Source of the DNA: an uncultured Roseburia sp.
GTDB lineage: Bacteria > Bacillota > Clostridia > Lachnospirales > Lachnospiraceae
Length of the DNA: 64,000 nt
NCBI GenBank assembly: GCA_947649645.1
Contig: CANSSP010000008.1
Coordinates: 62,001-126,000, forward strand
Direction: 5' to 3'
Under the pieces are notes generated by a model. The model did not search any database and was not told the DNA's origin. It was given only the letters and a program-made list of their open reading frames with translations. Both the position numbers and the translations under genes were made by a program. Positions 25,819-64,000 of this stretch are shown here, one piece after another; the first letter of the stretch is position 1, and each line of letters opens with the position of its first letter.

Positions 25819-25869
25819 CTCTTTCCACCTTTCCCTCGTTTCTTTTTCTGTATTGCACAAACCTATCTT

Positions 25870-39202: not shown

Positions 39203-40408
39203 TCATCCGTTTTCATCTGCATCCATGCATTTTTTTGCGATCAAAAACAGCCTTCCATCCTCTGCAAAACTGTTACAGGTCGACAGCGTCAGCAGCTCGT
39301 CGCCATATTCCGGCAGATCATTGGAGATATAAACCGAAAGCTGCTGCACATTTTTCAAAAAATCGTCAAAATCCTGTTCGGAATCTGCCTGAATAAAATC
39401 ATAATACCGAAATGCATTATCCCTCTGGTATTGAACCTGCGCCAGACAGACTGCGAAGATTTCATAAGTTCCCTTTTCATATATTGTATCAAATGCAACC
39501 CGCTTATGGGAAGACCAATATTCTTCATCCAGATAATTTTTTAAACCGCCAAACATCTGTCCGCTCTTCATGTTATGACCATAGACAATAATATTTGTAC
39601 TCCGGTTTAACAGATTGGTCCTCGCATCCATGAACAAAGTTCCATTTATATCCTCTTCCTTATTAAAATTGCGTCCGAGATAATAATCTGTGTCACCTCT
39701 CGTCAGCATTACCGGATAGTCCACTTTCGTGTCATCAATCTGAATCCACCCTGCAAAATCGGGATTCTCCCGATAAATCGCCGAATATTCCGGCAGAATA
39801 TCCGCCGTCATCACACTTTCTTCATATCCCGCTCCCCGGGCCGCCGCAAGTTCCGGAGCGTCACCGAGAAAAAAAGTATTGTTGTCAATCAAATCTACTG
39901 TCTGCCCCTGCTCCTGGAGCTGTTTTAAATAGTCATTTGTCTTGTTGCCGCGATGATTTGTGTAATCAGACCAGAAATACCATGCAAAACAGGCAATTGC
40001 CGCCACAAGGCAGACAGCGCCCAAAATCTGTCGGCTGTGGTCCACTGTAAATGTTTCGTCCGATGTATCCTTGCCGGACCCCTTTCCCAGGATCTTCCTT
40101 AAAAAATTCCCGGAGCCATTGACAGGATCCCCTCCCCCAACAGCTTCTCTTCTGTTCTTCTCCTCCCCTCCGTCCTGCACACTGTCAGCGACGACGTCCG
40201 CGAGATCCAGAAAGAACTGCCTTCCTATCTTGCTGTAAAACCTTACTCTTCCCGATCGGATCAACTGATACAGGCGTGAAGCAACATCCGGATCATAGAT
40301 GTCAATGGAATGCGTAATCTTATATATTTTTCTTACATCCAGCATTCCGCGGACATATTCTTCATGTGAGTCGAACTCATATTTCCCTATCTTGTATCTT
40401 TCGGCCAT
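39203..40408 (-). CDS. Class B sortase with an N-terminal cytosolic extension
   Basis: Membrane transpeptidase of 401 residues. Residues 1-125 are soluble and cytosolic; the first 75 form a compact-looking domain (YEFDSHEEYVRGMLDV and SRLYQLIRSGRVRFYSKIG). A membrane helix lies at 127-147. The catalytic domain has DFAGWIQIDDTKVDYPVM, the catalytic His278 in IIVYGHNM, Cys378 in LTLSTCNSF and Arg386 in DGRLFLIAKK. Sortases cleave a Thr-Gly (or similar) bond in a sorting motif and link the protein to peptidoglycan or pili. The genes on either side encode surface proteins, one with TPKTG. The cytosolic extension is not part of classical SrtB. Confidence 0.9.
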   Translation of the reverse strand: MAERYKIGKYEFDSHEEYVRGMLDVRKIYKITHSIDIYDPDVASRLYQLIRSGRVRFYSKIGRQFFLDLADVVADSVQDGGEEKNRREAVGGGDPVNGSGNFLRKILGKGSGKDTSDETFTVDHSRQILGAVCLVAAIACFAWYFWSDYTNHRGNKTNDYLKQLQEQGQTVDLIDNNTFFLGDAPELAAARGAGYEESVMTADILPEYSAIYRENPDFAGWIQIDDTKVDYPVMLTRGDTDYYLGRNFNKEEDINGTLFMDARTNLLNRSTNIIVYGHNMKSGQMFGGLKNYLDEEYWSSHKRVAFDTIYEKGTYEIFAVCLAQVQYQRDNAFRYYDFIQADSEQDFDDFLKNVQQLSVYISNDLPEYGDELLTLSTCNSFAEDGRLFLIAKKCMDADENG

Positions 40409-43500: not shown

Positions 43501-46500
43501 TCCCTCATAATTATTAATTCCCTGAACTGTCACAGATGCCTTTGCATTGACATATGTGTTCCTCTCGTATTTGGCGCAGATAAAATCTGTGTCTTTGACA
43601 AGAAGCCTGCTGATACCGGTCTCGCCGTCCACCCCTTTAAAATAAATCTTTGGAACAGGTTCTGCCTTTCCGTTTTCAAGAGGCTGCGGCTGAATGACAT
43701 CCATGCTGAATCCGGCTGCCAGTTCTTCCCCGTATCCGATATTTCTCGGACGAATGGTAAACTTCGCCGCTCCGCCAGTATTATTGACGTCCAGTTTTCC
43801 GGTATAATTCTTATTCAGCGCCACAAGCTCAAAGAGAACTTCGCCGCGGTCAATGTTATTTCCCCAGTTGATTGAAAACTCCTCGAGAAGGTTATCAACC
43901 GGTGTTGTTCCCACAAAAAGCTTCAGTTCCGGCGTGATTCCGTGTCCAGTGTACTCCGCACTGTAGCTTCCGTCTCCGATCAGTGTTCCGAAATGGTCGA
44001 TGTAGAGTTTTGCATTTACCTCTTCAATATTGATCTTGTCAATGGTAAAATACTTCTCCACTATGCCGCCATAGAGTCCCATTCCTTCTATTTTAATGAT
44101 ACCTATGCCTGCATTTATGTTTTCTCCATACGTCACCTTATAATCTTTTCCCTCTTTCAGGGGTTTATCGGTACTGCCGTTTTTCACACGGTACAATGTG
44201 ACGGGCGGCGTATATTGTACTCCTGTATATGGCTTGTTACTGTCGTCATACACAATCTGTACTTTGTTCGGGTCTCCGATATTGATACCGATTTTAAATC
44301 TCGCTTCCAGACCGTCCTTGAAGTTGACGTCCGAAGCCGTGATAATTACTTTGGCCCAGTCTTTCTCATCATCGCTATTTGTTATTGAGAAGTTATTCTC
44401 ATACTCTACCGTATAGTCTGTCGGCGACTGGAGCAGATACACATCCTCTTTTCCCGTACCATACTGATACTTTATCGTCACAGGCGGACGGACGGCTGTT
44501 CCGTCGATATTCTCACCCTGGGTCGAAAGCGGATCCAGTTTTATGTCGGTATCCTGAAGGCTCTTCTTCTGAATCTCAAAGGGCTCTTCGTAAACGCCGG
44601 TATAATTGCCCAATCCCTTGACTCTCAGATAAGCCGTCCCGGCATTGACGTTGTCTCTGTACTCCAGTGTGTAGTCCTTGCCTTCCCGAAGCGTCTGCGT
44701 ATTGTTATTTTCAAAACCAAACTGAACCTTAATCCCGGTCTGTATAATCGGCTGGGACGTATAGACGCTTCCCGTCTTATCCACACCGGTCACACTGGTT
44801 CCGGTTCCATTCCCTTTTTCGTACAGCTTCTGTGGCTGAATCTCAAACGGTTCCTCATGACTCAGATAACTGTACGCGCCTTTTCCGGTGATCGTAACCG
44901 TCGCCTCATCGCCTACATTGACATTATTATGGTATTCAAGATCATAATCCGTTCCCGGTGTAAGTTTCTGGACCGTGTTGCCCACTCGCACATGCACGGT
45001 GACATCCGGGCGCACTTCCTTCCCGCCGTTGTAGAACGCTTTTTCTACAATATAAGAAGAGAGCTCCTCGCTTTCCTTTGCGATAATCTTAAACTCAATC
45101 TCTTTCCAGCGGTCAAAGTTATTCTTTCCCGCAATCTTTACCGATGCATATTCATTTTCTTTATTTACTCCATTGTTCTGACTATAGGTCGTATCCTGGA
45201 ACTCGTAATCCGTTCCCTCCACCAGCATGCGTCCGCCAAAGGACAGATATACATCGTTTCCTGTCAGCTTCACCGGAACACCGTCATAATCCTTCACAAT
45301 CGAACGCTTTAACTCCGCCAGCTTTAAATCCGCCGGTTTGATCGTGAACGGCTTCTGCGCCTTTACTGTGTTGCGATACACAAAACATCCGTTTTTCGTT
45401 GGAAGATATTTAAACTCCACCGCATCGACTTCGACAATCGGATTGCTGCCGTTTACACCGTTTACATCAATGTTATCCTGGTAAACTAAATTATAATCTT
45501 CCCCCTCCTGCAGTTTATCGCCCAGCCAGCCGTTTAGAATCCCGCCGACTCTCACGTCCACGCCGCTCAGGGTTACTTTCTGACCAGTATACTCCGGCTT
45601 TTCATCGGGAAGATTGATCGTACAGCCGTCCAGTTCCTTCGCAATCAGATAACCATATGTCTTTTCCCCAAAATATTTGCCCTGTCCGGTGATCTTTACT
45701 TTCGCATAAGTTCCCCGTTTTGACATCTGGGAATAATTCTCATAGCTCAGCTTGTAATCGTCGCCCTCCGTCAGAACAGCGCCGGACGGATCTTTTACAA
45801 TGATCTTCAGTTTGCCGTCCCCGTCGCCCAGCCAGAGCATAGCCATATACAATCCCGCGCCGTTCTGATAGCCATTGACCAGTCCCTGCGTCGACGGATC
45901 GACGCTCACAGAACAATCCTCAATCGCTGTCCCGCTGATCTCAAAGTCTGCCAGCAATGCGCCGGTATAATTATTCATACCGTGTATCTCAGCCCTGACA
46001 GGACCTCTCGTCGCGTCTTTCGGCTGATATTCAATATAAAAATCTTTGCCGCTTTCCCCCTTACTTCCTTCCGTAAGCTCATGCAGTCCGCCGTTGTCCG
46101 CAACATAATAAACCCTGATTCCTGCGTCTTCCGGCCTGCTTCCATAGGGAAGTTCGGGATGTGTGATCTCTACTTTGATTTTTCCGGCAAGACTTGCTTC
46201 GCGCAGCTCGCACGGAACAATCGTATACTCCAGTATCTTGTCGTTGACAAAATTTCCCTGTCCGGTGATCGTGATCGTTTTCTTACCCAGTCCTGCATTC
46301 GCACCGCGGGTAATCGTATAATCCGTACCCTCCGCAAGCGTGATGCTGCCGCTCGGATCTGCATTGGTCCGGAACGTAACCTCTACTTTCTGAACCATCT
46401 CCCCGTCAACCGGCGAATAAAATATACTCCCGCCGGAAGCAGGCGACACCTTGATATCGGTGCTTGTAGCAAAATCTACCGGCTTAATTTCAAAGGCATT

Positions 46501-49302
46501 CTTATCCTGTATGACCTTCTGTCCGGTGTATCTGCCTTTGCCTTCTATAATCACCCGAGGGGTTCCCGCACTCGTATTGTTTTCAAAGCGGACTGTATAA
46601 TCCGTATCCGGGATAAGGTTCGTAACCCCCGCACCCGCATGATAAATCAGCTCAATCTCCGAGTACGGCTCCTGCTTTCCTCCCGTATATTCTTTTACAA
46701 TCGGCTGTATTCCCTTCACAATTGTACTGATATCGCTGACATCAATCTTATAGATACCCGTAGCCGTCCCGCTGAAATTGCCGATACCGGTCACCTCATA
46801 CGTTCCGGTTCCCGCTGCCAGATCCTCAGATACCGACCGGATCGTAAAATCTTTATCTTTCGTCAAAAGATGATTTCGATATACTATCGTCGCTTCCGGA
46901 ACCAGATTACCGGCATCATCCCTGGACGCAGACACCATTTTATTGACGTCCGCCTCTCCGATATCTTTCGCTATAATGGAAAATGGTTTCTGTGCCGTTC
47001 CATAATAATCGTTAATTCCTGTGATAACCACACTTGGAGCCGGTGTCCCGTTTACATTCGTGCGTTCACCCACATAGCTGATCGTATAGTCCCTGTCCCT
47101 GGCAAGAACGACGTCCCCCAGTGTCACATTGATACCTGGCTGACGCTCTTCGCCTGTGTAGACGCACTCACCATTTTCCCGCACGAGTCCGTGCTCATCG
47201 TTTGTAGCCGTAAAAGAAATCTGTGCCGTTGCCAGCGATTTCGGCTCATTCAGTCTGCGCTCACCGGTATAGTTTCCAATACCGGTAAGAATAATCCTGC
47301 CGTTTTGTACACTTATCTCGTAGTCCTGGTGGATAACAAGAGCCTCTCCTCTCCCTTCATCCCGTATTTTGAGATAACTTTCCGGTTTTCCGCTCGCTGT
47401 TAACAACTTTTCATCAATTTCACAGATAACATCTTCGTGATTAATATTTTTTGTTTCAATTACAAAAGGTGCCTGAAAACTGCCGCTAAAACCTGCCACC
47501 CCTTTGATTCCCGTGATATCATACCGATAAGTCCCGGCGTTCCGGAATCCATTGCTGGCTCCCTCAATACCCGATGTATATTCCACTCCGTTGGGATCAA
47601 TATATACGAGCTCTGACTGATAATCATGCCCCTCCGCCAGTGTAAGCTCACCCAGCATAACCGTCATCACAGGATTATGCGGCTGACCGTCGTAGAGAAC
47701 TTTATTTCCCTCACTAAAGGAGACTGTAAGAGACTCCGCACTCGCAATTACATAGACATCACAGGTATATGTCTTCCCCTGATAATCCGCAGTGATCACC
47801 GTCTGTCCTGTCATGACACCGCGCACGTCTGCCTGCCAGGAACCGCTTCCTGTCACCGTCGCAATTTCCGGATTTCTGCTGGTCCAGACCACTCCCGTGC
47901 CGCCTCCGGTCGTCAGTGTCAGCGTCGCCGTCTCGCTCACGCCGATAATCATCATCGCCGGATCCATTTTTACATTGCTGGTTGTATCACGCTCGGGCAG
48001 CTTCTCCGGCTTCTCAATCCCTTCGCCGCCGATCGTCGCCGGTCCGTCTTCCGTATCCTCCGGCTCATCCGCCGGATCCTGTGTCTCCGTTGTCTCTGTT
48101 GTCTCCGTTGTTTCAGTCGCCGGCTCCGTCGGAACCTGTGTGTCGCCGACAGAAGGATCGTTCGTATCCGACGGCGTCTGCGTGCTCTCTGTTTCAGCCG
48201 GTGCCTGCGTGTCGCCGACAGAAGGATCGTTCGTATCCGACGGCGTCTGCGTGCTCTCTGTTTCAGCCGGTGCCTGCGTGTCGCCGGCCGAAGGGTCATT
48301 CGTGTCCGACGGCGTCTGCGTGTCACCGACTGACGGGTCACTCGTATCTGACGGAGCCTGTGTTTCTGTTGTGTCTGTCGCCGGCTCCGTTGGAACCTGC
48401 GTGTCGCCGGCTGGCGGCTCACTCGTATCCGGCGGCGTCTGTGTGTCCCCGCCCGACGAATCGCCCGTATCCGGCGGCGTCTGATTGTCTCCGCTTTCAG
48501 AATCTGCCGGAGGCTGTTCTCCATCCGCGGGCGGAGCCTGTTCTCCGCCTTCGTTATTTCCTCCGTCCGTAATGTCCTGCCCCGGCGGTAAAACAGCATC
48601 GTCTGCTCCTGCATCCGCCGACGGCACATCGGCCGGTGCATCAACGGGAACCTCCGGCTCCGCACTGCTCCTGGAAAAAGCAGACCTTATGCGCGTGACA
48701 ATGCTGACCTCTTCCGTCTCCACATCATACGTTATCGCCCGGATATTAAGCACACTCTGCTCCGCTGCGAGATCTTTCCATGTACCGTCTTCCTGATCAA
48801 TATAAGTTCTGCCTTCTTCCGATAATTCGTCTGCGTAAAAGGAAACGCCCTCTCCGGTAAGCGTGACAATAATCGCAAATGTCGTCCCCGGTTCCATCTC
48901 CATCAGCGAACTGTTCAGATCAATCCGGTTTGTTCCTTCTACAAGCCCATACAGCTCGTCGGAACACACAAACTTACCCAGATCCGGCGTCCCTGCCGCC
49001 GGTCTCACATAGTATGCCACGGTAGCCTTCGTCTGGCTCGCATCCGTTCCCTCTTCCACATGAAGATCAAAGGTCGCGCTCTCTAAGATCTCGGCCTCTC
49101 CGTCCTCATTCTGGCTGACTGTAAAGACTGCGGCCGCCCTGCGTGCCTTAACGATTCCGGCATCCCCGTCACCGCCGTGCTGATACAGGTGATATGTCTT
49201 TGTCTCTTCTGCCTTTACCCTCGTCGGCCACTGCACGAAGGTAACCACCAGACATATCGTCACCGCCACTGCTAAAACTCGTTTCCATACATCCTTGTAC
49301 AT
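40501..49302 (-). CDS. Giant secreted repeat protein, 2933 residues, with fibronectin type III end
   Basis: Starts at the ATG at 49302, with AAGGAG 8 bases upstream (a GTG two codons earlier is too close to it). The signal peptide is KRVLAVAVTICLVVTFVQ. Order: an N-terminal beta domain (~35-215); a Thr/Pro/Asp-rich stalk (~235-440); a Big_2-like domain with VVWTSRNPEIATVTG; then roughly 25-30 repeats of 70-85 residues of the form YTG..P..V..G...L..G.DY...Y..N...G.A.V...G.GNYTG (positions ~530-2840), resembling MBG-type Ig-like domains; finally an Fn3 domain (SISLRWSGTGVVTGFEIYRA). No LPXTG-type motif or membrane tail is visible, so how it stays on the cell is unclear. It is first in the sortase operon. 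Confidence 0.88.
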   Translation of the reverse strand: MYKDVWKRVLAVAVTICLVVTFVQWPTRVKAEETKTYHLYQHGGDGDAGIVKARRAAAVFTVSQNEDGEAEILESATFDLHVEEGTDASQTKATVAYYVRPAAGTPDLGKFVCSDELYGLVEGTNRIDLNSSLMEMEPGTTFAIIVTLTGEGVSFYADELSEEGRTYIDQEDGTWKDLAAEQSVLNIRAITYDVETEEVSIVTRIRSAFSRSSAEPEVPVDAPADVPSADAGADDAVLPPGQDITDGGNNEGGEQAPPADGEQPPADSESGDNQTPPDTGDSSGGDTQTPPDTSEPPAGDTQVPTEPATDTTETQAPSDTSDPSVGDTQTPSDTNDPSAGDTQAPAETESTQTPSDTNDPSVGDTQAPAETESTQTPSDTNDPSVGDTQVPTEPATETTETTETTETQDPADEPEDTEDGPATIGGEGIEKPEKLPERDTTSNVKMDPAMMIIGVSETATLTLTTGGGTGVVWTSRNPEIATVTGSGSWQADVRGVMTGQTVITADYQGKTYTCDVYVIASAESLTVSFSEGNKVLYDGQPHNPVMTVMLGELTLAEGHDYQSELVYIDPNGVEYTSGIEGASNGFRNAGTYRYDITGIKGVAGFSGSFQAPFVIETKNINHEDVICEIDEKLLTASGKPESYLKIRDEGRGEALVIHQDYEISVQNGRIILTGIGNYTGERRLNEPKSLATAQISFTATNDEHGLVRENGECVYTGEERQPGINVTLGDVVLARDRDYTISYVGERTNVNGTPAPSVVITGINDYYGTAQKPFSIIAKDIGEADVNKMVSASRDDAGNLVPEATIVYRNHLLTKDKDFTIRSVSEDLAAGTGTYEVTGIGNFSGTATGIYKIDVSDISTIVKGIQPIVKEYTGGKQEPYSEIELIYHAGAGVTNLIPDTDYTVRFENNTSAGTPRVIIEGKGRYTGQKVIQDKNAFEIKPVDFATSTDIKVSPASGGSIFYSPVDGEMVQKVEVTFRTNADPSGSITLAEGTDYTITRGANAGLGKKTITITGQGNFVNDKILEYTIVPCELREASLAGKIKVEITHPELPYGSRPEDAGIRVYYVADNGGLHELTEGSKGESGKDFYIEYQPKDATRGPVRAEIHGMNNYTGALLADFEISGTAIEDCSVSVDPSTQGLVNGYQNGAGLYMAMLWLGDGDGKLKIIVKDPSGAVLTEGDDYKLSYENYSQMSKRGTYAKVKITGQGKYFGEKTYGYLIAKELDGCTINLPDEKPEYTGQKVTLSGVDVRVGGILNGWLGDKLQEGEDYNLVYQDNIDVNGVNGSNPIVEVDAVEFKYLPTKNGCFVYRNTVKAQKPFTIKPADLKLAELKRSIVKDYDGVPVKLTGNDVYLSFGGRMLVEGTDYEFQDTTYSQNNGVNKENEYASVKIAGKNNFDRWKEIEFKIIAKESEELSSYIVEKAFYNGGKEVRPDVTVHVRVGNTVQKLTPGTDYDLEYHNNVNVGDEATVTITGKGAYSYLSHEEPFEIQPQKLYEKGNGTGTSVTGVDKTGSVYTSQPIIQTGIKVQFGFENNNTQTLREGKDYTLEYRDNVNAGTAYLRVKGLGNYTGVYEEPFEIQKKSLQDTDIKLDPLSTQGENIDGTAVRPPVTIKYQYGTGKEDVYLLQSPTDYTVEYENNFSITNSDDEKDWAKVIITASDVNFKDGLEARFKIGINIGDPNKVQIVYDDSNKPYTGVQYTPPVTLYRVKNGSTDKPLKEGKDYKVTYGENINAGIGIIKIEGMGLYGGIVEKYFTIDKINIEEVNAKLYIDHFGTLIGDGSYSAEYTGHGITPELKLFVGTTPVDNLLEEFSINWGNNIDRGEVLFELVALNKNYTGKLDVNNTGGAAKFTIRPRNIGYGEELAAGFSMDVIQPQPLENGKAEPVPKIYFKGVDGETGISRLLVKDTDFICAKYERNTYVNAKASVTVQGINNYEGEVIIYFEIKDSINNAIVEMPGTLDFLDERGNERNENAIHKLIEDDLHVYLKNADGSKGKEVPKADYEVSYGVYNGVGPLLVTVTPKKTSSLTGEYKGYVHIWGELTSADKDIEIKIDDQEYTGGQLRPVPVVTFHGKTLMAGSHFTVTYGPNIGPGQAGTVGGGTVTIEGNEEFCFKGVMSANFNIVMMQKPFTIEGVKDSYKFRGEPICPTAPDVIVRTSNKVLVQNVDYILTYGENMYANTDNAYVRAEGIGAYGNSYSNDVKFTIQPLDVGELIVKEGDHEGITDKEYTGSTIYPENLSVWYREGSKEYRMDRNGWCTIQPLATADNVSAGVGTLILDGDGQNIVGRREITFKIIGRTLKPEGVEIVGNGFTYNGQEHRPAVIVRDGDVILDNEIDYTVSYKDNVNAGTATVIVTGNGNYSGKVEKTFQIARYNFSNDAQILLPNGYDYPFMGTGGVKPPMVVQLTSNQNILAETTDYTVSYSNNTAYSGTARITITGQGNYTGTATQTFNITRHDIAAEDVIVEPIPNQGFTGYEIVPEITITCGEYGLQKNRDYELEFPDGNVNIGNVRVIIRGKNGFTNFREEVFYIGYDLKNAEVIGLKKSYPYTGEKYELGTPGLGITGVRMGDLVLATTSYKLEYAAGSNGISAGEQVLVLTGQGEYGGSVEKTFEITPKNIRDEDVVMEGFVDDMPYEANITQKITLRWGNITLKEGEDRDYTMVCERSNKPGIWTMTLQGVGNYTGTITKNFSVDQKDISDAEVKNISSIYTYTGEPIIPEIEVLLGGRRLVEGRDYRVVGIQDNVNAGTAKIWLEGIGNYTGECEVTFQIDRKSVQNVSVSSIGTQVYTGLDIEPAVSVSDGGRGLAMGVDYSVVYADNRKPGTGSAIVTGQGNYTATKSIPFNIRPGSVTNIAVTATTSTSISLRWSGTGVVTGFEIYRAGDDGSYVRIGRRRVLEDYTDTQLTAGKNYYYKVRAYLVTDGEVYYSEFSPVAQGRI
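48121..48480 (-). repeat. 69-bp and shorter tandem repeats coding for the Thr/Pro stalk
   Basis: A 69-bp unit (23 residues, with the words SDTNDPSVGDTQAP and AETESTQTP) occurs twice almost without change, at about 48173-48241 and 48242-48310. Degenerate copies of the DTQxPxDTxxPxxGD theme continue to 48480. The array probably varies in copy number. Confidence 0.75.
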
Positions 49303-49308
49303 AAGCAC

Positions 49309-53577: not shown

Positions 53578-55266
53578 ATGCATATGAAATCAGAAAAAAG
53601 GACACAAAGCATATTTGAACGCATCCGGGACGAAATCGCCAGAACCGGTTTTCTCCCCGAAAGTTTCCGATGTGAAGAAGAAATACCTGACGATGGAAAA
53701 CTTAAGTTTATGCCGGGCGCACTGGAAGGAATCCTGAATCACCACAGTCCCGACGAAAACGACCACGAACAGGATAGCGCCATGGGCATCCCCGCATTTT
53801 TGAGAAATCATCTGACAGAGGATGCCGAAGCGACCGTCCGGCTCTATGAAAAGCAATGGGGCTGCGTTCATATCGCCCCTCTCAGAAACCGTATTCCACT
53901 GTCCATTCTGGAAAAAAAAGAAGAATACGATGCCGGACGACTGGCAGCACTGGCATACGCCTTTCTGACAAGGGCAGTGAAAACGGAGGCCGTCAAAATG
54001 GGACTCGTATTGATGACTCTGTCTGACACGGCAGAAGACGTAACTATAAAAGAGACATTCCGCATACTCGGCTGCTGTGAAGATTTTACAGATTATGTTT
54101 TATGGAATACGGCAGCCTGGCCGGATGAGGAACGGAACCGGCTGTGCTTTGCACTGGCAAAAAAACTGCATGGATGGGGAAAAATCAATGCAGTGGAAGC
54201 TCTTAATGCAAATACAGATGAAATAAAAGAATGGATTCTCTGTGAAGGATGTAAAAACGCAATTTTATACGGGTATCTCGGCCTTATATGCGCCGTTAAA
54301 TGCGATTACAAAACCCGTCTGCAAAAAGGAGCGCTCACAAAATCCGAGCTTTCCGGCGCATACGATATTATGGAAGGACTGCTCGACGAAGGACCATGCA
54401 GCGGCATCTCAGCACTTTCCGACCCGGAGGAAACAATTTACTGGTATCTGTGTGCAAATGAAGGAAAAACTGTGGATACAGCATATCTTAGACAGCTCCT
54501 GTCCATCCGCAGTTTTCTGCGCGGCAGATACCCACAGGGCGACGACACAGCGGGCGCGAACGCCATTTCAGAGTTCCCGGCGTCCGAAGAAGCTATCTGG
54601 CGCAAACGGGCTGATACAAAACTGGCCGGGCTTCTTAACACTTCCGACGCCCGTGAAATTATCATACATGGACTGCGGACAGAGCCGTACGACGCCGTCT
54701 GCGCCGCACGGCAACTGCAGATTGACATTTCGGACGAGCTTCTTGCACTGATGCGGCACGATTTTGAATCCTTCTATCAGTTTGGATACTATTTTCTTCA
54801 GCCCGCAGAGTCCACGCCGCGCACCCGCCGGCTGGCAGGCGACTATATCGCTCTGTGTGAAGCACACCTGAACCACAGCCGGCCCGCGGGACAAACCGAT
54901 CCTGTTCCTGTCCGCAATGACATCGGGCACTGGAACGTCGATATGGCCGTCCAGTACCTTGACCAGTATCCCGGCCTGGGAAAGCAGCTCATACGCGCCT
55001 CCCTGTATTCGCCTCGTGTGCGCTGGCGCAGCGTGGCGGTCAAGGCACTTCTCGGGTGGAAAACTGCTCTGGGAACAAGTCTGGAGGAATCTGCACCGGA
55101 ACTTTTCGCAGATATTCAAAGAGCCGCCGGGCTGGAATGCGATCACAGACTCAAAAAGCGCTTCGCAGAACTCCTCAGACAGCCAGAACAGACCGTTAAG
55201 CACCAGAATCAGATCACAGCAGTTGGAGGTCACAATGAAAAGAAAGAAAATCCGCCGGCCCCGTAA
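53578..55266 (+). CDS. Unknown 562-residue helical protein
   Basis: I cannot name a family. The protein is soluble and predicted to be largely alpha-helical, with helix pairs of HEAT/ARM character (for example LAALAYAFLTRAVKTEAVKMGLVLMT and RASLYSPRVRWRSVAVKALLGW, read in part), and no signal peptide or membrane span. It contains several Cys-rich spots (LGCCEDF, CEGCKN) without a clear metal pattern. The last 30 residues are polar. The start has GGGAG 5 bases upstream. The following tiny gene begins inside its last 32 bases. It diverges from the GGDEF operon. Repeat proteins of this sort often act as scaffolds. Confidence 0.7.
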   Translation: MHMKSEKRTQSIFERIRDEIARTGFLPESFRCEEEIPDDGKLKFMPGALEGILNHHSPDENDHEQDSAMGIPAFLRNHLTEDAEATVRLYEKQWGCVHIAPLRNRIPLSILEKKEEYDAGRLAALAYAFLTRAVKTEAVKMGLVLMTLSDTAEDVTIKETFRILGCCEDFTDYVLWNTAAWPDEERNRLCFALAKKLHGWGKINAVEALNANTDEIKEWILCEGCKNAILYGYLGLICAVKCDYKTRLQKGALTKSELSGAYDIMEGLLDEGPCSGISALSDPEETIYWYLCANEGKTVDTAYLRQLLSIRSFLRGRYPQGDDTAGANAISEFPASEEAIWRKRADTKLAGLLNTSDAREIIIHGLRTEPYDAVCAARQLQIDISDELLALMRHDFESFYQFGYYFLQPAESTPRTRRLAGDYIALCEAHLNHSRPAGQTDPVPVRNDIGHWNVDMAVQYLDQYPGLGKQLIRASLYSPRVRWRSVAVKALLGWKTALGTSLEESAPELFADIQRAAGLECDHRLKKRFAELLRQPEQTVKHQNQITAVGGHNEKKENPPAP

Positions 55267-55375
55267 GATAAAACCAGTCCGAAAAATAAAAACCGTCCGG
55301 ACGCCAAAACCAATTCGATTCCTAAAACCACTGAAAAAACTAAGACCTGCAGGAAGGCTGAAATGCATATTCTGA
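55235..55375 (+). CDS. 46-residue Lys/Arg/Pro-rich peptide
   Basis: A short gene with a nearly ideal ribosome site (GGAGG, 5 bases before the ATG at 55235), starting inside the 3' end of the upstream gene in another frame. The peptide has about 20 Lys/Arg in 46 residues and no acidic residue. It consists largely of a loose repeat K-x-(V/I)-R-x-(I/P) with regularly spaced prolines (RRPRKIKPVRKIKTVRTPK, then PIRFLKPLKKLRP) and ends RLKCIF. It could bind nucleic acid, be a secreted or toxic cationic peptide, or be a translational coupling product. I know no named family that matches. Confidence 0.5.
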   Translation: MKRKKIRRPRKIKPVRKIKTVRTPKPIRFLKPLKKLRPAGRLKCIF

Positions 55376-55514
55376 TCGTATAAGTCGCACCTGTAATCTG
55401 GCAGAAACAGCCTCATCTGCTCACCAGTTCACTCCCCGGCCATTCCAGAAACCGACGGGCAGCAACACCGGCCGCGCGCCATCAGCCCCTGACATACAAT
55501 CGTTAAAATAACAC

Positions 55515-55543
55515 TTGTAATCAGCCTCCCGGCACGATATGAT
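55515..55543 (+). promoter_or_regulatory. Promoter of the ankyrin-DUF2804 pair
   Basis: TTGTAA (55515-55520) and TATGAT (55538-55543) with 17 bases between. The ATG of the ankyrin gene is at 55583. Confidence 0.6.
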
Positions 55544-55582
55544 ATTATAAAAGTAGAACAAAGGGAAAGGAGCTGATGCCGC

Positions 55583-56680
55583 ATGGCGCGAAAAAGAAGA
55601 ACCCTCCCGAAAAACTTCGAGGATCTGATCCGGACAGGGGATATCCCGACAGTCAAAGCTGTTTTTGACCGTTGTTCAGTAGATGCCACAAGTGCAAAAA
55701 CAGGAAAGACGGCGCTCTTTTATCCGGAGCTTGCGGAAGAAGTCGCCGGATGGCTGCTTGAACAGGGGGCTGACTTAAACGCAAGAGACCGCTTTGGCCT
55801 GACTCCGCTGCACGCACAGGCTTCGGCTCCCGCCGGAAAAACCGCTTTCTATATAAAGCATGGGGCCGATCTGAATGCCGCCGACGACCGGAAAATGACT
55901 CCGCTGCACTGTGCCGCCGGCGCCTTCTGTCCTGAAAACGTATCCGTCCTCTTAGTGCATGGGGCCAGAGCTGACATGCGCGAGATTCTGTTTCTCACCA
56001 CGCCGCTGGAATATATGCTATCCGTCTGCCGTGTCAGAAACATTCCGGATGCCGTAAAAATTGCGGTGCGCTTTCTCGAAAACGGAACGCCCATCACCAC
56101 AAGAATGCAGGATGAGGTAAAGCGCATCGGATGGAACTGGCCCGCTGCCCGCAGAGAAATGGACAGGGAAACCCTCCGCAGCACAGACCGGGAATTAAAT
56201 CACCTGTACGCATTATTCGAGGTATCCCTGTCAGCAAAGCCGGATGTCCACGACGGTTACTCTCCGATTACCGTCCCGGCCACGCACTGGAAAATACAGC
56301 ACCGTAAGCTCTGGTCCCTGCTGGTTCCCCGGGCCGGGCATGCAGAGACGATGCAGGGCGAGGCAATCCGCATCTCGGGAAAAATTGCGCGTGAATTTTT
56401 CACTTACCACGGTGTGAACTTCGGCCGGGAACACCAGAATATGCTGCTGGTACTCGCCACATTTTTCCACATGGGAACGCAGCTTCCCCCGGACGCACTC
56501 TCAGAAGCTACTGTACTTGCCGCACAGTTAAACGGCAGATCAGATACCACACAGGCCGAACGGCTGTGTGAACTGACCGTTCAATGGGTTTTGCTCAACC
56601 CTGCGCCAATCATGATGAGCACGGACGATATCACCGGGCATATGCAGAAATGGAGGACACAATGGAAAAAGAACAATTAA
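55583..56680 (+). CDS. Ankyrin repeat protein
   Basis: Protein of 365 residues. Residues ~12-160 contain three to four ankyrin repeats: DLIRTGDIPTVKAVFDRC, then LLEQGADLNARDRFGLTPLHAQA, YIKHGADLNAADDRKMTPLHCAA and LLVHGARADMREILFLTTPLEYML (key words GADLNA, TPLH). The remainder (~170-365) is a helical region of unknown family with a HWKIQHRKLWSLLVPRAG segment. There is no signal peptide. AAAGGAG is 9-11 bases before the ATG. Its last 19 bases overlap the DUF2804 gene, implying coupled translation. Ankyrin repeats bind proteins, so a partner among the neighbours is possible. Confidence 0.8.
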   Translation: MARKRRTLPKNFEDLIRTGDIPTVKAVFDRCSVDATSAKTGKTALFYPELAEEVAGWLLEQGADLNARDRFGLTPLHAQASAPAGKTAFYIKHGADLNAADDRKMTPLHCAAGAFCPENVSVLLVHGARADMREILFLTTPLEYMLSVCRVRNIPDAVKIAVRFLENGTPITTRMQDEVKRIGWNWPAARREMDRETLRSTDRELNHLYALFEVSLSAKPDVHDGYSPITVPATHWKIQHRKLWSLLVPRAGHAETMQGEAIRISGKIAREFFTYHGVNFGREHQNMLLVLATFFHMGTQLPPDALSEATVLAAQLNGRSDTTQAERLCELTVQWVLLNPAPIMMSTDDITGHMQKWRTQWKKNN

Positions 56681-57663
56681 AAATGGGACCTGTACTGGAC
56701 AAAAAAGGGCGCCCGATTCCCGGTTTTTCAAGACACAACACATACGTATACGATCGCCGTGCCATACGCGCAATGCCCTGGCGGATCAAAGAATGGGATT
56801 TCTACCAGATCTCCAACGACAGACTCTGTCTGCAATTCACCATCGGGCACGCATCCTACGCGGGACAGATAAGCCTGATGCTGTTTGATTTTGTCAAAGG
56901 CGAAAAGCTGCTCGATCTCAACAAAATTCTGCCGCTTCCGTTTCATTCCCTGCACATGCCATCCGACACGGAAAAGACCCATGTACTCAAATATGACAGG
57001 GACGGCATATTTATGCGGTTTGAGGCCAGGGGAAACAAACGCAGGCTGACCTGCAGATGGGGCGACGTAGAAACCGTAATCCATCTTATCCGCCGCAATC
57101 CGGATTCGCTCGTCATAAATCTGCCGTTTGACGAATCAAAACATGCATTCTACTTTAACCAGAAGATCAATTGCATGACGGCCGGGGGATATATCCGTTT
57201 CAACGGCAGAAAACAAGACTTTAAAGAAGAATGTTCCTTCGGCCTTCTGGACTGGGGGAGAGGCGTCTGGCCTTTCCACAATGAATGGTATTGGAGCAAC
57301 GGCACAGGATATCTCGACGGAGAGATGTTTGGATTTAACTTAGGATGCGGCTTCGGAAACACCGATACGGCAAGTGAAAATATGCTCTTTTATAAAGGAA
57401 AAAGCCATAAAATCGGAAAAACAGACTTTATCCTGGGCGCAAAATACATGGATCCCTGGCAGATTAAAGACCGGGAAGGAAGGCTGGACCTTACGTTGTC
57501 GCCCCTTTACGACCGGACGACAGCCATAAAGCTCCTATGGGTCGATAACTGCTGCCATCAGATGTTCGGCACATTTTCCGGAACCGCCGTGCTTGACGAC
57601 GGGACAGTACTGCACATAAAAGACATCATATCATTTGCAGAACACGCGGTAAATAACTGGTAA
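56662..57663 (+). CDS. DUF2804 family protein
   Basis: Protein of 333 residues from the ATG at 56662 (GGAGG 5 bases upstream, inside the ankyrin gene). It matches DUF2804: an early KGRPIPGFSRH start, the central LLDWGRGVWPFHNEWYWSNG block near residue 196, and FGFNLGCGFGNTDTASENMLFYKGK-type text after it (key words GFNLGCGFG, SENMLFYKG). The fold is expected to be beta-rich, related to lipocalin-like or carotenoid-synthase-like AttH proteins; the activity is unknown. No signal peptide, so cytosolic. It ends 6 bases before the -35 box of the chemoreceptor promoter. Confidence 0.87.
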   Translation: MEKEQLKMGPVLDKKGRPIPGFSRHNTYVYDRRAIRAMPWRIKEWDFYQISNDRLCLQFTIGHASYAGQISLMLFDFVKGEKLLDLNKILPLPFHSLHMPSDTEKTHVLKYDRDGIFMRFEARGNKRRLTCRWGDVETVIHLIRRNPDSLVINLPFDESKHAFYFNQKINCMTAGGYIRFNGRKQDFKEECSFGLLDWGRGVWPFHNEWYWSNGTGYLDGEMFGFNLGCGFGNTDTASENMLFYKGKSHKIGKTDFILGAKYMDPWQIKDREGRLDLTLSPLYDRTTAIKLLWVDNCCHQMFGTFSGTAVLDDGTVLHIKDIISFAEHAVNNW

Positions 57664-57730: not shown

Positions 57731-57784
57731 GGCAACACTATGGCTGTATCGACAATCACACACATACCCGAGGGGAATTACATT

Positions 57785-59656
57785 ATGAAAAAAATCTTTA
57801 CCAGAAGGCTCTGCCTGTGCATGGCTCTTGCCCTGTTTTTTAACATTGTCACGGTAGCAATGATTCAGATCATGATATCTGAGCAGGACAAGACAACCGA
57901 CAGCCATGAAAGGCTGGATTCCGTAAAAGAACGGCTCGCAGAAAACGATGAGACAATCGCCATGCTGACCGAAACACTCGGACAGAACAATCTCTCAAAG
58001 ACACGTGCCTTTGCAGATATGATCGCAGCAGACGAGACCATCCTGACAGAGCCCGGAAAACTCAAAGAAACAGAAAAACGCCTTATGGTAAACGAACTTC
58101 ATGTAATCGATGAAAAAGGAATCATCACACACAGCACAATCGAAGCCTACATAGGGTTTGATATGAACAGCGGGGAACAGTCGGCAGCCTTTATGCCGAT
58201 CGCACAGGACCCGTCCCTTGAAATTGTACAACAGCCACAGTTAAACGCCGCAGAAGGCATTATGATGCAGTATATCGGCGTTGCGCGCAAGGACGCCCCC
58301 GGGCTTGTGCAGGTCGGCATCCGGCCCGAGGTACTGGAAAATCTGCTTGTGGGAACACAGATTGCGGCTGTCTTAAAGACAATCGAATTTGGAGAAGACG
58401 GATACGTTTACGCCGCGAACGCTTCCGACGGCACCATCCTGGCATTCCCCGATAACGCCCTGATCGGCGGCGCCGCAAAAGAAGCCGGTATCCCGCAGCA
58501 GGCCGGAAAAGGAACAGCCAGAATCCAGGGAATAAAAGGCAAATATGTCTCACAGGAATATGACGGAATGTTCATCGGCACATTTATGCCGCTGGCAGAA
58601 TACTATCAGGAACAGGTCAGCCAGACTGCCGTTATCGCACTGAGCAGCTTCCTTATCTTTGCCGTACTTCTCCTGTTTATCAACCGGCTTCTGGATCAGA
58701 AAATTGTCCGCGGCATACAAAATATCACCACCTCGGTAAAAAGGATAGCGGACGGCGATTTCGGAATATCCGTCGAGGAAGACGACACGCCCGAGTTTTC
58801 CATGCTCAGCGGCAGCGTCAATAAAATGGTCGAGTCCATCCGCCGCAGCATCGGTGAAAACGAAAAACTGATCTTTAGGCAGAAAGCGGATATGGCAGAC
58901 AACCTGAATTTAATTGAAAACATAAAAACCGTCTGCGCAAATCTGGACGAAGTCTCACGGGAAACCCTGTCTACGGCAGATGCAATCCAGAATGGCACAA
59001 CCGAGCAGGAAGAAGCCGTAAAAAATCTGGGAGAGGTCATGCAAAGCCTGGTGCAGGAGCTCAACAGAAGCGCAGAAGCTTCCCAGAACGCGGCAGCATC
59101 AGCCATGCAGGCTGCCCGGAAAATCGAGACGACCGGACTTAAAATGCGCACACTGGAAGACGCGATTGATAAAATCAGCAATATGTCCGCTGAAATTGAG
59201 GAAATTATCGACGAGATCAATTCCATCGCTCAGCAGACGAATATGCTCTCTCTGAACGCGTCGATCGAAGCGGCCAGAGTCGGTGAATCCGGAAAAGGAT
59301 TTGCCGTCGTTGCCACACAGGTCGGCGATCTGGCAGCCCGAAGTGCCCAGGCGGCAAAACAGACAAGCCAGCTAATTACAAACTCGATCAACGCAGTCGA
59401 GGAAGGCCGTCTGCTCACAAAGAAAACATCGGAAGAATTTTCCACTGTCGTGACAGAAATCATACAGGCCAGCCACAGTGTAAAAGAAATCACCGATATG
59501 GTAAAGCAAAATGTTGCCACGGTTTCACAGGCCGTTGAGGGTCTGGACGTCATTGAAAATGTCGTCGGAAAAAACATAGAAATATCCAAAAACAGTATTA
59601 CCGTTTCGGAACATATGGCCGGAGAAGCCGGAAAGCTTCTCGAACTGGTTGAATAA
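57785..59656 (+). CDS. Methyl-accepting chemotaxis protein
   Basis: Transmembrane receptor of 623 residues from the ATG at 57785 (GAGGGG upstream). A first membrane helix at ~8-30 is followed by an extracellular Cache-like sensor domain (~35-280, with [21 protein letters not shown]) and a second helix at ~285-307 ([18 protein letters not shown]). A HAMP domain follows, then a cytosolic methyl-accepting coiled coil with the conserved hairpin tip [20 protein letters not shown] and the flank [14 protein letters not shown]. It would modulate a CheA kinase. No che or flagellar genes are in the window. The helicase gene follows within 36 bases. Confidence 0.93.
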
Positions 59657-59692
59657 TCATCCGCCGGACACTGCTTCCCTGAGAGGTATCCT

Positions 59693-62600
59693 ATGAACAC
59701 CATTCATCGTGACATATTTAAAGCCGTCCATGAAAATAAATGGCTCAGTATTGAATATAAAAATAAAGACGGTGAAGTCACCAGATACTGGATCGGAATC
59801 AGAAAGATCTGTCTGAAAGACCTGTCCATGACGGTAGACGGCCTGCATCTTTCAAAATATGTGACACAGGAGTTAAAAATATTTATCGGTTCTATTCTGA
59901 CATCGGCTGTAATTGATGGTTCCTATTATGAGGTTCCGGCAGCATTAAAAAATGACATCCGGCAGCATCCTCACAGGTACCGGCCTCTGTTTTATAACGT
60001 GGCGAATCTGAAAATATTAAACTATCTGGCCGACTGTAACAGACTGGACTATACTCCCTACAAGACAGAATATTCGCTGATTCAGAAAATAGACAGCGAT
60101 TCTTTCCACAACAGAAGCTGCCGCCTTACACCGGAACAGTTTCAGGAGATCGTCTCAAATTTCCAGATCCAGGCCAGAAACCGGGAGACGGCACGCAAAA
60201 TAAAACAGCTTGCCATCAACGTGATCAGCATCAACACCAGAAACGGTTTATATGTGCTGGCCTACCGCAAGCTGAATCTGGACGTCAGAAATAAGTGCCT
60301 TAAGTCCGACGAAGACATAACCATCTGTACGGAATTTACAATCAACGGAAACCGTCAGAGCATCCGACGGTTTCTGGACGCAGACGATCTTGCCCTCCTT
60401 GCAGACCCTGAACCCCACCTGGAGCAGATCAAAAACCGGATTACACAATCGGCCAGCCAGGTAAACGGGGTGGACGATATGCCTTATCTGATTGCAATCG
60501 GGAGAGACCTTATCCTGGATGTGCAGGGTGAATACGCCGGTATCGTAAAGATGTTTGAAGAAGGCCGCGCTACCGTCCCGCTCAAAGCGTTTTTCGGCGG
60601 ACTCATCAAAGCTCCGGAACGGCGCAAAGACTACCCGATCACGCTCCTGAACAGACAGATCAATCTTGACCAGCTTCTCGCCATCCACAATGCCGTAAAA
60701 TATCCGCTTGCATATATCCAGGGACCACCCGGAACCGGAAAAACCAATACCATTGTCAATACGATCGTGACCGCTTTCTTTAACGAAAAAACGGTCCTTT
60801 TTGCATCTTACAATAATCATCCCATCGACGGCGTATGCAGGAAATTACAACGGATCCCCTATCTGGAAAAAGACTATATCCCCTTCCCCATGATTCGTCT
60901 GGGCGATAATTCCCGCGTTGACGAGGCGCTTGACGAGATTCGGAACCTTTATGAAAAAACACAGAATCTCAAAATTTATGACCGCACACTGGAGCGGAAC
61001 AAGGGAAGCCGGATTGACCGGACAAAAGAGCTGACCGCGCTGTTAAAGCGATATGAAGAAAGGCTTGATCTGATCGAGCGCAAAGAAGCTCTTGACGCGC
61101 TCTGGGAGGAAAACAGCCAGTATCTCAATTTTCAGACTCAGCTGGACGGCGTACAGCGAAAAGAAATGGAACAAAGGCTAAAACAGATCGGTGAAATTAC
61201 TGACGATGAGGCGCTGAAACTTGTGCTTGGCGATGAAGACGCATTTAAGAAATACCTTTATTATATTTCTGCCAGATATATCAAACGTCTCGGCGAACCG
61301 AAAAACGAAGACCTTATGAAAATCGTCTTCCATGAAAACCGCGAGGAACGCGTCCGCTTTTTTAATGACTATCTTTCCAAAGAAGAAAATGTCAAAAAGT
61401 TTCTCCGCATTTTCCCCATTGTAGCAACGACTTCCATCTCTTCCCACAAAATCGGCGAACCGAAACCTTATTTTGACATGACGATCATGGACGAAGCCAG
61501 CCAGGGAAATCTCGCCGTCTCTCTGGTTCCCGTGATCCGTGGAAAAAACCTGATGCTGGTGGGCGATCCTCAGCAGTTAAGCCCCGTCATACTGCTCGAC
61601 CCCAAAGATAACGCCATACTGCGGAAAATGTATGGTGTTCCCGAAGAATACGACTATTTAAAAAATTCCATCTATAAAACCTTCCTCGCATGCGATGCCA
61701 TCAGTGACGAAATTCTTTTAAGCCATCACTACCGCTGCGACAAACGAATTATTGCATTTAACAACAAAAAATATTACAATAACAAGCTGATCATCGACAC
61801 CGGCGAGCGCACACAGACGCCGCTTCGCTTCCTCGACGTCCCCGAAAATACGACGCAATACAAAAATACCGCGCCGTCCGAGGCCGAAGAAATTGCCGCG
61901 TTTGCCAAAGACAACCCCGATAAAAGCATTGGTGTCATCACTCCGTTTGCCAATCAGAAAGAATGTATCAACGAAACATTAAAGCAGAACGGCATTACAA
62001 ATGTGACCTGCGGTACGGTTCACGCATTTCAGGGCGACGAAAAAGATATCGTCCTTTTTTCGCTCGCACTGACAGACAAAACCAGCCCCAAAACCTATGA
62101 ATGGCTGAAAAACAATAAGGAACTGATCAATGTCGCAACTTCCCGTGCAAGAGAACAGCTGATCCTCCTCTCCAGCCGTCGGGAGCTGGAACGTCTCCAC
62201 GGCACAGAATCCGACGATATCTACGAGCTTGCCCAATACGTAGCGACAAAAGGGACATCAGAAATTACGGCCCGCACCACCGAATCGCGCGCTCTCGGGA
62301 TCAGGCCATACAGCAGCGAAACCGAAACCGCATTCCTTGAAAATTTAAACCACGCGCTTGGCAACGTCCTCTACACCGGGCAGAAATGCTCCGTCAGAAG
62401 AGAGGTCAGCGTCTCCCATATCCTCGGCGATAATGACAGCTACCGCGACCTGTTTTACACCGGGTACTTTGATTTCGTCGTTTACCGGCAGGAATATCCC
62501 AGAAAGGAAATACCGCTTCTGGCGATTGAGCTGGATAAAAAAGAGCCGTATGACGGCGATCTTGTAAAAGAACGGGATCGTCAAAAGGCCAGAATCTGTA

Positions 62601-62707
62601 AAAACCACGGCTTTGAACTGATTCAGATTGAAAATTCCTACGCGCGACGGTACAACTATATCAAAGATATTCTGATCCGTTATTTCAAAAGCGTAAAAGG
62701 TTATTAA
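59693..62707 (+). CDS. WYL-like domain, SF1 helicase and DUF2726-like nuclease fusion
   Basis: Protein of 1004 residues. Residues 1-95 look like a WYL ligand-sensing domain (IFKAVHENKWLSIEYKN, TRYWIGIRKI, MTVDGLHL). The SF1B helicase core has Walker A GPPGTGKT at 344-351, Walker B DEAS at 600-603, motif III GDPQQLSP at 624-631 and motif VI VATSRAREQLI near 813-823. A ~130-residue helical insert lies between motifs Ia and II. The C-terminal ~115 residues match the DUF2726 type, with LLAIELDKKEPYDGD near 942-955 resembling the PD-(D/E)XK metal and Lys positions. The first ATG is used; AGAGG lies 5 bases upstream. Similar single-protein helicase-nucleases act in DNA repair or phage defence; the role here is inferred. 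Confidence 0.8.
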   Translation: MNTIHRDIFKAVHENKWLSIEYKNKDGEVTRYWIGIRKICLKDLSMTVDGLHLSKYVTQELKIFIGSILTSAVIDGSYYEVPAALKNDIRQHPHRYRPLFYNVANLKILNYLADCNRLDYTPYKTEYSLIQKIDSDSFHNRSCRLTPEQFQEIVSNFQIQARNRETARKIKQLAINVISINTRNGLYVLAYRKLNLDVRNKCLKSDEDITICTEFTINGNRQSIRRFLDADDLALLADPEPHLEQIKNRITQSASQVNGVDDMPYLIAIGRDLILDVQGEYAGIVKMFEEGRATVPLKAFFGGLIKAPERRKDYPITLLNRQINLDQLLAIHNAVKYPLAYIQGPPGTGKTNTIVNTIVTAFFNEKTVLFASYNNHPIDGVCRKLQRIPYLEKDYIPFPMIRLGDNSRVDEALDEIRNLYEKTQNLKIYDRTLERNKGSRIDRTKELTALLKRYEERLDLIERKEALDALWEENSQYLNFQTQLDGVQRKEMEQRLKQIGEITDDEALKLVLGDEDAFKKYLYYISARYIKRLGEPKNEDLMKIVFHENREERVRFFNDYLSKEENVKKFLRIFPIVATTSISSHKIGEPKPYFDMTIMDEASQGNLAVSLVPVIRGKNLMLVGDPQQLSPVILLDPKDNAILRKMYGVPEEYDYLKNSIYKTFLACDAISDEILLSHHYRCDKRIIAFNNKKYYNNKLIIDTGERTQTPLRFLDVPENTTQYKNTAPSEAEEIAAFAKDNPDKSIGVITPFANQKECINETLKQNGITNVTCGTVHAFQGDEKDIVLFSLALTDKTSPKTYEWLKNNKELINVATSRAREQLILLSSRRELERLHGTESDDIYELAQYVATKGTSEITARTTESRALGIRPYSSETETAFLENLNHALGNVLYTGQKCSVRREVSVSHILGDNDSYRDLFYTGYFDFVVYRQEYPRKEIPLLAIELDKKEPYDGDLVKERDRQKARICKNHGFELIQIENSYARRYNYIKDILIRYFKSVKGY

Positions 62708-62797: not shown

Positions 62798-64000
62798 ATG
62801 GCAATAATGAAAAAAATATGGGATAAGATTGGTTCCATCGTTGAAAAAAACAATAGGAACCCTTATAATGGGAATGCGGCGCCGGAAGACGAACCGGAAA
62901 AGAATACTGAACAATGGCGCCCGCAGGGAGGAAACGACATGGAATTTGTACACCAGAAGCCGCAGCGTGGCGTAAAACTGCAGCCCTTGGATGTAATAGA
63001 TGGTTTTCAGGTCAGACCAGGGTTTTATAACAGAGACGGCGCAGCCGCGGCGTCCAACGGCGTCAGCTTTACAATTCACTCACTCGGAGCGACGAGCTGT
63101 ACCCTGCTGCTCTTCCGTCCGCAGGAAAAAGAACCCTATGCCAGATTAAAATTTCCCGAATCCTATCACATCGGAAACACCTACTCGATGCTGGTATTCG
63201 GGCTGGACATCGAAGAGTTTGAATATGCATTTCAGATTGACGGACCGTATGACCGGGAAAAAGGACTTCTTTTCAATAAAGAGAATGTTCTGCTGGACCC
63301 ATACGCAAAGGCCGTGACAGGACAGAGAGAGTGGGGCGAACGCCCGGAAAATGACGAAGGGTTTGTATACCACGCGAGAGTCGTGGAGAACAACTTTGAC
63401 TGGGGAAATACCAGACAGCTGGAGCGTCCGCTTGCAGACCTTGTCATTTATGAGATGCATGTGAGAGGATTTACCAAAGACGAGTCCTCCAATGTATCCG
63501 CAAAAGGGACGTATGAGGGTCTGCGCCAGAAGATCCCTTATCTGAAAGATCTTGGAGTAAACGCGGTGGAACTGATGCCCATTTTTGAATTTGACGAAAT
63601 GGAAAGCGCCAGGGTCGTCGACGGAGAGCAGCTCTACAATTACTGGGGTTATAACACCGTCTGCTTTTTCTCACCGAACACAAGCTATTCGTCCGTGGTG
63701 GAACACAATCACGAAGGCGACGAATTAAAACAGATGATCTATGAATTAAAGGAAAACGGCATCGAAGTGATTCTGGATGTCGTATTCAACCACACAGCCG
63801 AGGGAAACGAAAACGGCCCCTGTTTTTCCTTCAAAGGAATCGACAACAATATTTACTATATGCTCACGCCGGACGGATATTACTACAATTTCAGCGGCTG
63901 CGGCAACGCCTTAAACTGTAATCATCCGGTGACACGCCGGTTTATCATTGACTGTCTGCGCTACTGGGTGACAGAATATCGCGTGGACGGCTTCCGGTTT
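62798..64000 (+). CDS. glgX: Glycogen debranching enzyme / isoamylase-type GH13 protein (partial, 3' end outside)
   Basis: Glycoside hydrolase family 13 enzyme that cuts alpha-1,6 branches of glycogen. The first 401 codons are in the window, starting at the ATG at 62798 with GAGG 7 bases upstream. A ~60-residue charged N-terminal extension comes first. The CBM48/E-set domain follows (GFQVRPGFYNRDGAAAASNG, FRPQEKEPYARL, VFGLDIEEFEYAFQIDGPYD). The barrel begins at LVIYEMHVRGFT, and conserved region I is seen as DVVFNHTAEGNE. The last visible text is WVTEYRVDGFRF, immediately before the catalytic Asp. The N-terminal extension is not usual for GlgX. Confidence 0.88.
   Translation, partial: MAIMKKIWDKIGSIVEKNNRNPYNGNAAPEDEPEKNTEQWRPQGGNDMEFVHQKPQRGVKLQPLDVIDGFQVRPGFYNRDGAAAASNGVSFTIHSLGATSCTLLLFRPQEKEPYARLKFPESYHIGNTYSMLVFGLDIEEFEYAFQIDGPYDREKGLLFNKENVLLDPYAKAVTGQREWGERPENDEGFVYHARVVENNFDWGNTRQLERPLADLVIYEMHVRGFTKDESSNVSAKGTYEGLRQKIPYLKDLGVNAVELMPIFEFDEMESARVVDGEQLYNYWGYNTVCFFSPNTSYSSVVEHNHEGDELKQMIYELKENGIEVILDVVFNHTAEGNENGPCFSFKGIDNNIYYMLTPDGYYYNFSGCGNALNCNHPVTRRFIIDCLRYWVTEYRVDGFRF

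Follow-up and report, generated by a model that had tools for sequence, protein, structure and literature searches.

What might a single bacterial protein do that joins a WYL-type domain, a helicase motor and a nuclease, and why does its gene lie directly behind one for a chemoreceptor? The question is raised by a gene of an uncultured Roseburia sp., in a 64,000-nucleotide stretch of contig CANSSP010000008.1 (hereafter the window) from a 3.07-Mb genome in 41 contigs. An earlier note on this DNA had taken the domain composition as that of stand-alone nucleic acid defence or repair effectors, with a ligand-sensing front. Here we examine the domains, the distribution of the gene family and its genomic settings, and weigh defence against the alternatives.

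Domain architecture

The frame on the forward strand is open across all 1004 codons, bearing out the single chain proposed earlier, and the sequence confirms the 36-base gap to the chemoreceptor gene (Table 1). The gene is single copy in its own genome and is also the sole DUF2726 match there. When compared with the 91% identical copy in genome G252, the only pair used for this measure, it has dN 0.044, dS 0.599 and dN/dS 0.073. The values for the four parts tested in the same pair lie between 0.055 and 0.127, and constraint in all four implies that the gene works in all its parts. Scans for promoters and terminators gave about as many matches as in shuffled sequence.

Table 1. Positions in the window of the focal gene, its domains and motifs, and the adjoining genes
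Feature	Position	Strand	Basis or remark
Whole gene, 1004 aa: WYL-like / Upf1-like SF1B helicase / DUF2726 nuclease	59693..62707	+	ORF, Pfam, predicted structure, purifying selection
Shine-Dalgarno-like GAGAGG	59681..59686	+	6 bases before ATG; read from sequence
Residues 1-84, WYL-like Sm barrel	59693..59944	+	Predicted: helix 3-13, five strands within 18-73
Residues 145-318, β-rich domain with flanking helices	60125..60646	+	Secondary structure of model
Residues 319-860, SF1B helicase core	60647..62272	+	
Walker A GPPGTGKT, residues 344-351	60722..60745	+	In all 54 aligned sequences except one T348S
Long helical insertion before motif II, residues 406-573	60908..61411	+	Structure model
Motif II DEAS, residues 600-603	61490..61501	+	Alignment
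Motif VI NVATSRAR, residues 813-820	62129..62152	+	Alignment
Residues 875-1004, DUF2726 PD-(D/E)XK-type nuclease domain	62315..62704	+	Pfam; helix-strand order in model
Nuclease motif D927, E946, D962, K965	62471..62587	+	Alignment rows with letters
Chemoreceptor upstream, context only	57740..59656	+	Stop 36 bases before focal gene
Glycogen-debranching/pullulanase-type gene downstream, context only	62798..64000	+	Named by eye; 90 bases after focal gene

The helicase motor is complete, as had been claimed: Pfam finds AAA_11 (1.5e-27) and AAA_12 (1.4e-22), and the helicase motifs are kept across nearly all of 54 aligned sequences. By sequence and by fold the relatives of the motor are Upf1-like, Dna2 being among the top PDB matches of both kinds. 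RNA helicases are also among the top matches, so the substrate of the motor may be RNA. In a whole-chain VIA structure search the matches span the helicase only. By analogy with UPF1/DNA2-type helicases, residues 145-318 are probably domain 1B and the stalk.

The predicted N-terminal fold contains an Sm-like β-barrel of WYL type. In the structure search WYL structures rank ahead of all other matches, the best Foldseek match having an E-value of 1.2e-3 and none reaching 0.001. Pfam gives no match of the focal protein to WYL (PF13280) above cut-off, nor any WYL hit, and a WYL search of its own genome found four other proteins, the focal one not among them. When 51 N-termini of the gene family were compared with Pfam, WYL was the commonest match (8 of 51, best E 0.021), the next commonest reaching 2 of 51. 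A profile of the N-terminus aligned weakly with five WYL domains: globally the P value was 0.003 (probability 4%), and the local alignment, 27 columns long, had an E-value of 7e-4 (probability 26%). Searched against PDB sequences, the profile produced only apparent chance matches, so the WYL assignment rests on structure. From the predicted model, then, a WYL-like fold for the N-terminus is supported.

The W-Y-L signature itself is absent: the third strand has the sequence MTVDGLHL, for which close relatives mostly show L.V.GLHL. In PafBC an arginine pair (PafB R211/R214) is described as needed for ssDNA binding (PMC11804915). The four WYL proteins of the same genome and one other read [FY][RK][LV].[RK][IM] in the strand where, in a register taken from the weak profile alignment (global P 0.003), the focal protein reads IFIGSI. 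The WYL-type front of the earlier note thus survives as a predicted fold, with neither a Pfam hit nor the signature, and its 'ligand-sensing' label is not borne out since the residues used by known WYL domains to bind ssDNA seem to be missing.

The nuclease end

At the C-terminus, the DUF2726-like nuclease that had been proposed is matched by Pfam over residues 875-991 (E 1.1e-6, 28.8 bits against a cut-off of 24.7). A profile of the nuclease searched against PDB sequences gave only apparent chance matches, so that this assignment rests on Pfam. According to PMC3710099, DUF2726 is a DNase of the REase fold. The candidate active-site residues also hold: counting alignment rows with letters, D927 is kept in 50 of 50, E946 in 51 of 51, D962 in 50 of 51 and K965, which would be the catalytic lysine, in 51 of 51.

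The window's copy is nevertheless unusual, reading ELDKKEP where the family usually has ELDGKEH: K949 and P952 replace a glycine present in 50 of 51 rows and a histidine present in 48 of 51. The 91% sister in G252 likewise reads KKEP and the 76% identical copy in G249 reads ELEGKEH, so the motif change is recent. H952 also deviates at loci L118 and L040. These substitutions raise the possibility, compatible with the other readings, that the window's copy is a motor lacking a working nuclease, its C-terminus only binding. We consider this doubtful, since D927, E946, D948, D962 and K965 are all kept and dN/dS of the nuclease domain is 0.083. The change is common to the sister pair and brought no subsequent loss of constraint.

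Distribution and transfer

Within the genus, 17 of 62 genomes (own included) carry the gene at full length and five more have partial or damaged copies (G203, G236, G238, G243 and G253). Across 200 genomes of the bacterial family, 52 show some match, mostly to the helicase and some extending into the nuclease, and full-length relatives occur in 12 (own included) at 48-63% identity. The 199 genomes other than its own thus hold 11 full-length and three partial copies, the latter being N-terminal pieces in G199 and G001 and a C-terminal piece in G135. At the level of the phylum the N-terminal profile matches 2 of 398 genomes (own included), both times within full-size frames. The earlier note had set the defence or repair interpretation against that of a conserved single-copy core gene; with these frequencies a core gene can be rejected, the family being patchy, transferred and sometimes broken.

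Among the best 80 matches listed from the genome collection, whose MAG records may contain foreign contigs, full-length relatives carry the titles Lachnospiraceae, Oscillospiraceae, Erysipelotrichaceae and Treponema. Those at 31-32% identity come from Algoriphagus, Chryseolinea and a Flammeovirgaceae MAG, and in two Acholeplasma-type records the copies are cut or interrupted. Outside its own phylum, the gene family has members in Spirochaetota and Bacteroidota. None of 121 matched plasmid records reaches 80% coverage, and phage records yielded five partial matches.

In a quick tree, the genus is split into separate, supported groups, between which lie rows from other genera. A single clade of the 16 genus rows is rejected (AU p 9.7e-5), with seven changes against 23 rows labelled other; that label is assumed for 12 named-record rows, and the 11 further rows from other genera show the same pattern. 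Such non-monophyly could also arise from paralogy; transfer is favoured by the varied sites and by each genome having just one copy. The copies in G220 and G223, for example, are 86% identical and occupy different genomic places.

The gene found upstream of the G220 copy occurs in 4 of the 62 genomes. At the corresponding site G203 retains a remnant, of the first ~209 codons only. In G223 and G201 this upstream gene is present and the focal gene is not within 1.5 kb of it; an exact empty junction was not found in the search of the 62 genomes with that gene. The broken copies in G243, G253 and G203 accord with a dispensable gene. The G203 remnant (L208:2283-2850) is followed by a recQ-like gene.

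Genomic context

Gene calls at the loci come from a simple longest-frame script and may include false frames. Neighbours were compared across 39 loci, where the commonest family (ABC-ATPase-like by eye) appears at 6 and the next at 3, and across 53 loci, where no pair has more than two close neighbours in common. A conserved partner gene can be rejected on both comparisons. Most of the neighbourhoods read, the window included, consist of ordinary-looking chromosomal genes.

The window's site is shared with G252 and G249, in both of which the glycogen-debranching/pullulanase-type gene also adjoins the focal gene, but even there the upstream side differs: a chemoreceptor precedes the gene in the window and in G252, and vsr, rtcB-like and ribosomal-protein genes do so in G249. 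A close chemoreceptor copy at this place was found only in G252 among the loci tested. The chemoreceptor had been called an odd neighbour; its adjacency is real and looks incidental, and a fixed unit of the two genes is rejected by the arrangement in G249. There (L162:9838-10281) vsr ends 12 bases before the focal gene, with the rtcB-like gene on its other side.

Of the 53 loci, 6 adjoin defence-type genes, a class taken here to comprise R-M, Abi, Cas and Vsr. Within two genes of the focal one, and confirmed with Pfam, are Vsr at L162, Abi_2 at L119, an N6 methylase at L114, an HsdR N-terminus at L038, a C5 methylase at L048 and Cas2 at L113. None was recognised by eye near the focal gene in the window. 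At L119 (L119:2459-9095, genome G022) Abi_2-type genes closely flank the focal gene, one being Pfam-confirmed and PADLOC assigning AbiD in two members.

To judge how far this exceeds expectation, 20 stretches at fixed places supplied 288 control proteins, of which 144 were used. Up to two neighbours per side were taken, each of 90-1400 aa, some contigs being too short for two. They were first read by eye, and Pfam was then run on chosen proteins, covering Vsr, Cas2, HsdR, the methylases and one of the Abi_2 rows; a further HsdR row and a further Abi row come from the PADLOC tally and reading by eye. Among the best 25 of 90 and 25 of 108 families listed for the 193 neighbours, PADLOC gives type I and II R-M and AbiD, beside helicase-type and candidate models; among the best 25 of 73 for the controls it gives Cas6, beside SspC, PbeC, RecD and candidate models. 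Matches to SspC, PbeC, RecD and PDC in controls, and to DpdE/F, ZorD, PsyrT, mad3 and PDC in neighbours, were set aside as too general. Counted by protein, defence genes make up 8 of 193 neighbours against 1 of 144 controls (p 0.049) or, with 2 of 144, p 0.12; by locus the figures are 6 of 53 against 1 of 20 (p 0.38). The excess is therefore marginal, and the count was not blind. The survey for defence islands suggested earlier thus yields defence-type genes at a minority of loci.

One copy is phage-borne. Viral contig L031 encodes portal, major head, sheath, baseplate hub and baseplate wedge proteins, with PHROGs matches in 8 of 10 scanned frames (taken from a separate scan, since the script chose wrong-strand frames here), and carries the focal-family gene at its end, behind the structural genes and one frame lacking assignment. 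Four scans found no second viral contig with the gene.

Comparison with known systems

Known defence systems provide no full-length match in PADLOC or NCBIfam, the partial matches in NCBIfam being far below cut-offs. The best PADLOC matches are to Mokosh MkoA and MkoC (8.9e-49 and 2.8e-46), mainly over the helicase. Mokosh has a PLD nuclease, and a kinase in MkoA, but the focal protein has neither a PLD match (Pfam, E up to 10) nor a kinase match. The candidate family PDC-S37 matches best over residues 593-978 (1.2e-33), the second helicase half and most of the nuclease, corresponding to positions 937-1317 of a 1550-position model.

A sister family of 900-aa proteins (L015, L019, L024) has AAA_11/AAA_12 and DUF2726 in all three members. 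It differs in its N-terminus, which has no WYL match and, in L019, a sub-threshold KTSC. All three match DUF2726 more strongly than the focal protein does, and two touch the REase model MTES_1575 below cut-off.

Among published systems, as far as the available parts of the sources describe them, the closest parallels are Type III-B CnuH, UvrD-Cas4 fusions and WYL-bearing Pif1; the focal family belongs to none of them. The CnuH helicase is Upf1-like, with a large helical insertion located behind Walker A and, in Type III-B, a Vsr-like nuclease fused to it (PMC11090510). The focal protein resembles it in motor, insertion and fused PD-(D/E)xK-type domain, but CnuH has an N-terminal wHTH and McrBC-type CnuB/CnuC in place of a WYL-like barrel and the lack of a conserved partner. 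UvrD-Cas4 fusions, found in stand-alone or non-conserved contexts, some with Dcm and Vsr, have been proposed to act in defence (PMC5704561). They too are stand-alone helicase-nuclease fusions, with a UvrD-type 3'-5' helicase and a Cas4-type nuclease instead. The Pif1 of thermophiles likewise pairs an SF1B helicase with WYL, but is of the Pif1 and not the Upf1 clade, has its WYL domain C-terminally with arginines present, and the available text mentions no nuclease domain (PMC9964779).

WYL domains were noted in 2014 to combine with Superfamily-I helicases and, among others, an Mrr-like REase, the accessible part of that account describing no triple fusion with DUF2726 (PMC4012209). The triple architecture appears in no title or abstract start found, and mention inside full texts is possible. 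The novelty thus lies in finding all three parts in a solo family that can be transferred; WYL joined to an SF1 helicase had been noted already.

Possible function

We favour a stand-alone, horizontally moving helicase-nuclease that is probably directed against phages or other mobile genetic elements, a reading to which we give a probability of roughly 55%. It draws on the domains and their conserved motifs, the low dN/dS, the patchiness, the transfer, the phage-borne L031 copy, the defence-type neighbours, the absence of a general neighbour and the broken copies. Against it stand the lack of a full-length match to known defence, the mostly ordinary neighbourhoods, the marginal excess, the single viral contig and the RNA helicases among the motor's top matches. 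The earlier interpretation accordingly holds for domain composition and for the gene not being core, is not supported on 'ligand-sensing' and holds only partly for defence. That the gene is mobile, partner-free, under selection and at times lost suits an immune effector more than an enzyme of repair. The pattern suggests, without proving it, that one portable gene provides defence against viruses or other DNA that invades the cell.

As a mechanism, the WYL-like barrel might bind a signal or substrate, be it protein, nucleotide or nucleic acid, otherwise than through the usual arginine pair, and would gate the protein. The Upf1-like motor would load onto single-stranded nucleic acid, translocate 5' to 3' and unwind, and the DUF2726 nuclease could then cut the displaced strand, motor and nuclease being coupled as in Dna2. 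More tentatively, the family may be a one-gene immune effector in which a sensor of divergent WYL-like type, using a new ligand mode, turns on the helicase-nuclease, the 3-kb gene travelling alone to ever fresh chromosomal sites and occasionally in phages, without partners. Stand-alone helicase-nucleases form an expanding group among bacterial immune effectors, and raise the question of how self-attack is avoided. A built-in WYL-like gate, if real, would unite sensing, movement and cutting in a single chain and extend the roles of WYL beyond transcription factors and Pif1.

Less probably, the protein is an accessory DNA repair or recombination enzyme, processing flaps, stalled forks or broken ends in the manner of Dna2, with the WYL-like barrel an extra single-strand binding module. 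The high rank of Dna2 among PDB matches is consistent with this, as are one locus after SbcCD-like genes and one after a RecQ-like gene (both by eye). In Thermotoga Pif1, moreover, the C-terminal WYL is described as binding ssDNA and being required for helicase activity (PMC9964779). We nonetheless think this unlikely: the gene is rare, patchy and not one clade in the genus, and is broken in several genomes, and, in the register of the weak alignment, the strand shows nothing that evidently corresponds to the PafBC arginine pair. More improbable still is an RNA-directed system whose target is phage RNA or that of the host, a role proposed for CoCoNuT CnuH: although the Upf1-like clade includes RNA helicases and the helical insertion recalls CnuH, DUF2726 is described as a DNase and no CnuB/CnuC (McrBC) gene was recognised beside the focal gene, there being no neighbour family general to the loci and no such gene seen by eye in the window.

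Other genes in the window

Upstream of the chemoreceptor, at 53578-57663 (+), lie genes for an unassigned protein of 562 aa, for one with ankyrin repeats and for a DUF2804-like one (by eye); tblastn found none of the three in an 18.3-kb stretch around the G249 copy. On the reverse strand, a 2935-aa frame (40501-49308) with repeated 'YTG...P...V...G..L..G.DY.V.Y..N' units and a Pro/Thr-rich stretch looks by eye like a giant surface-repeat protein; a sortase-like gene (39203-40408, -) lies downstream of it. Also on that strand, an 866-aa protein (21104-23704) with many 'GA..L..GA..L..GA' repeats adjoins, again by eye, an MMPL-type transporter (23707-25860).
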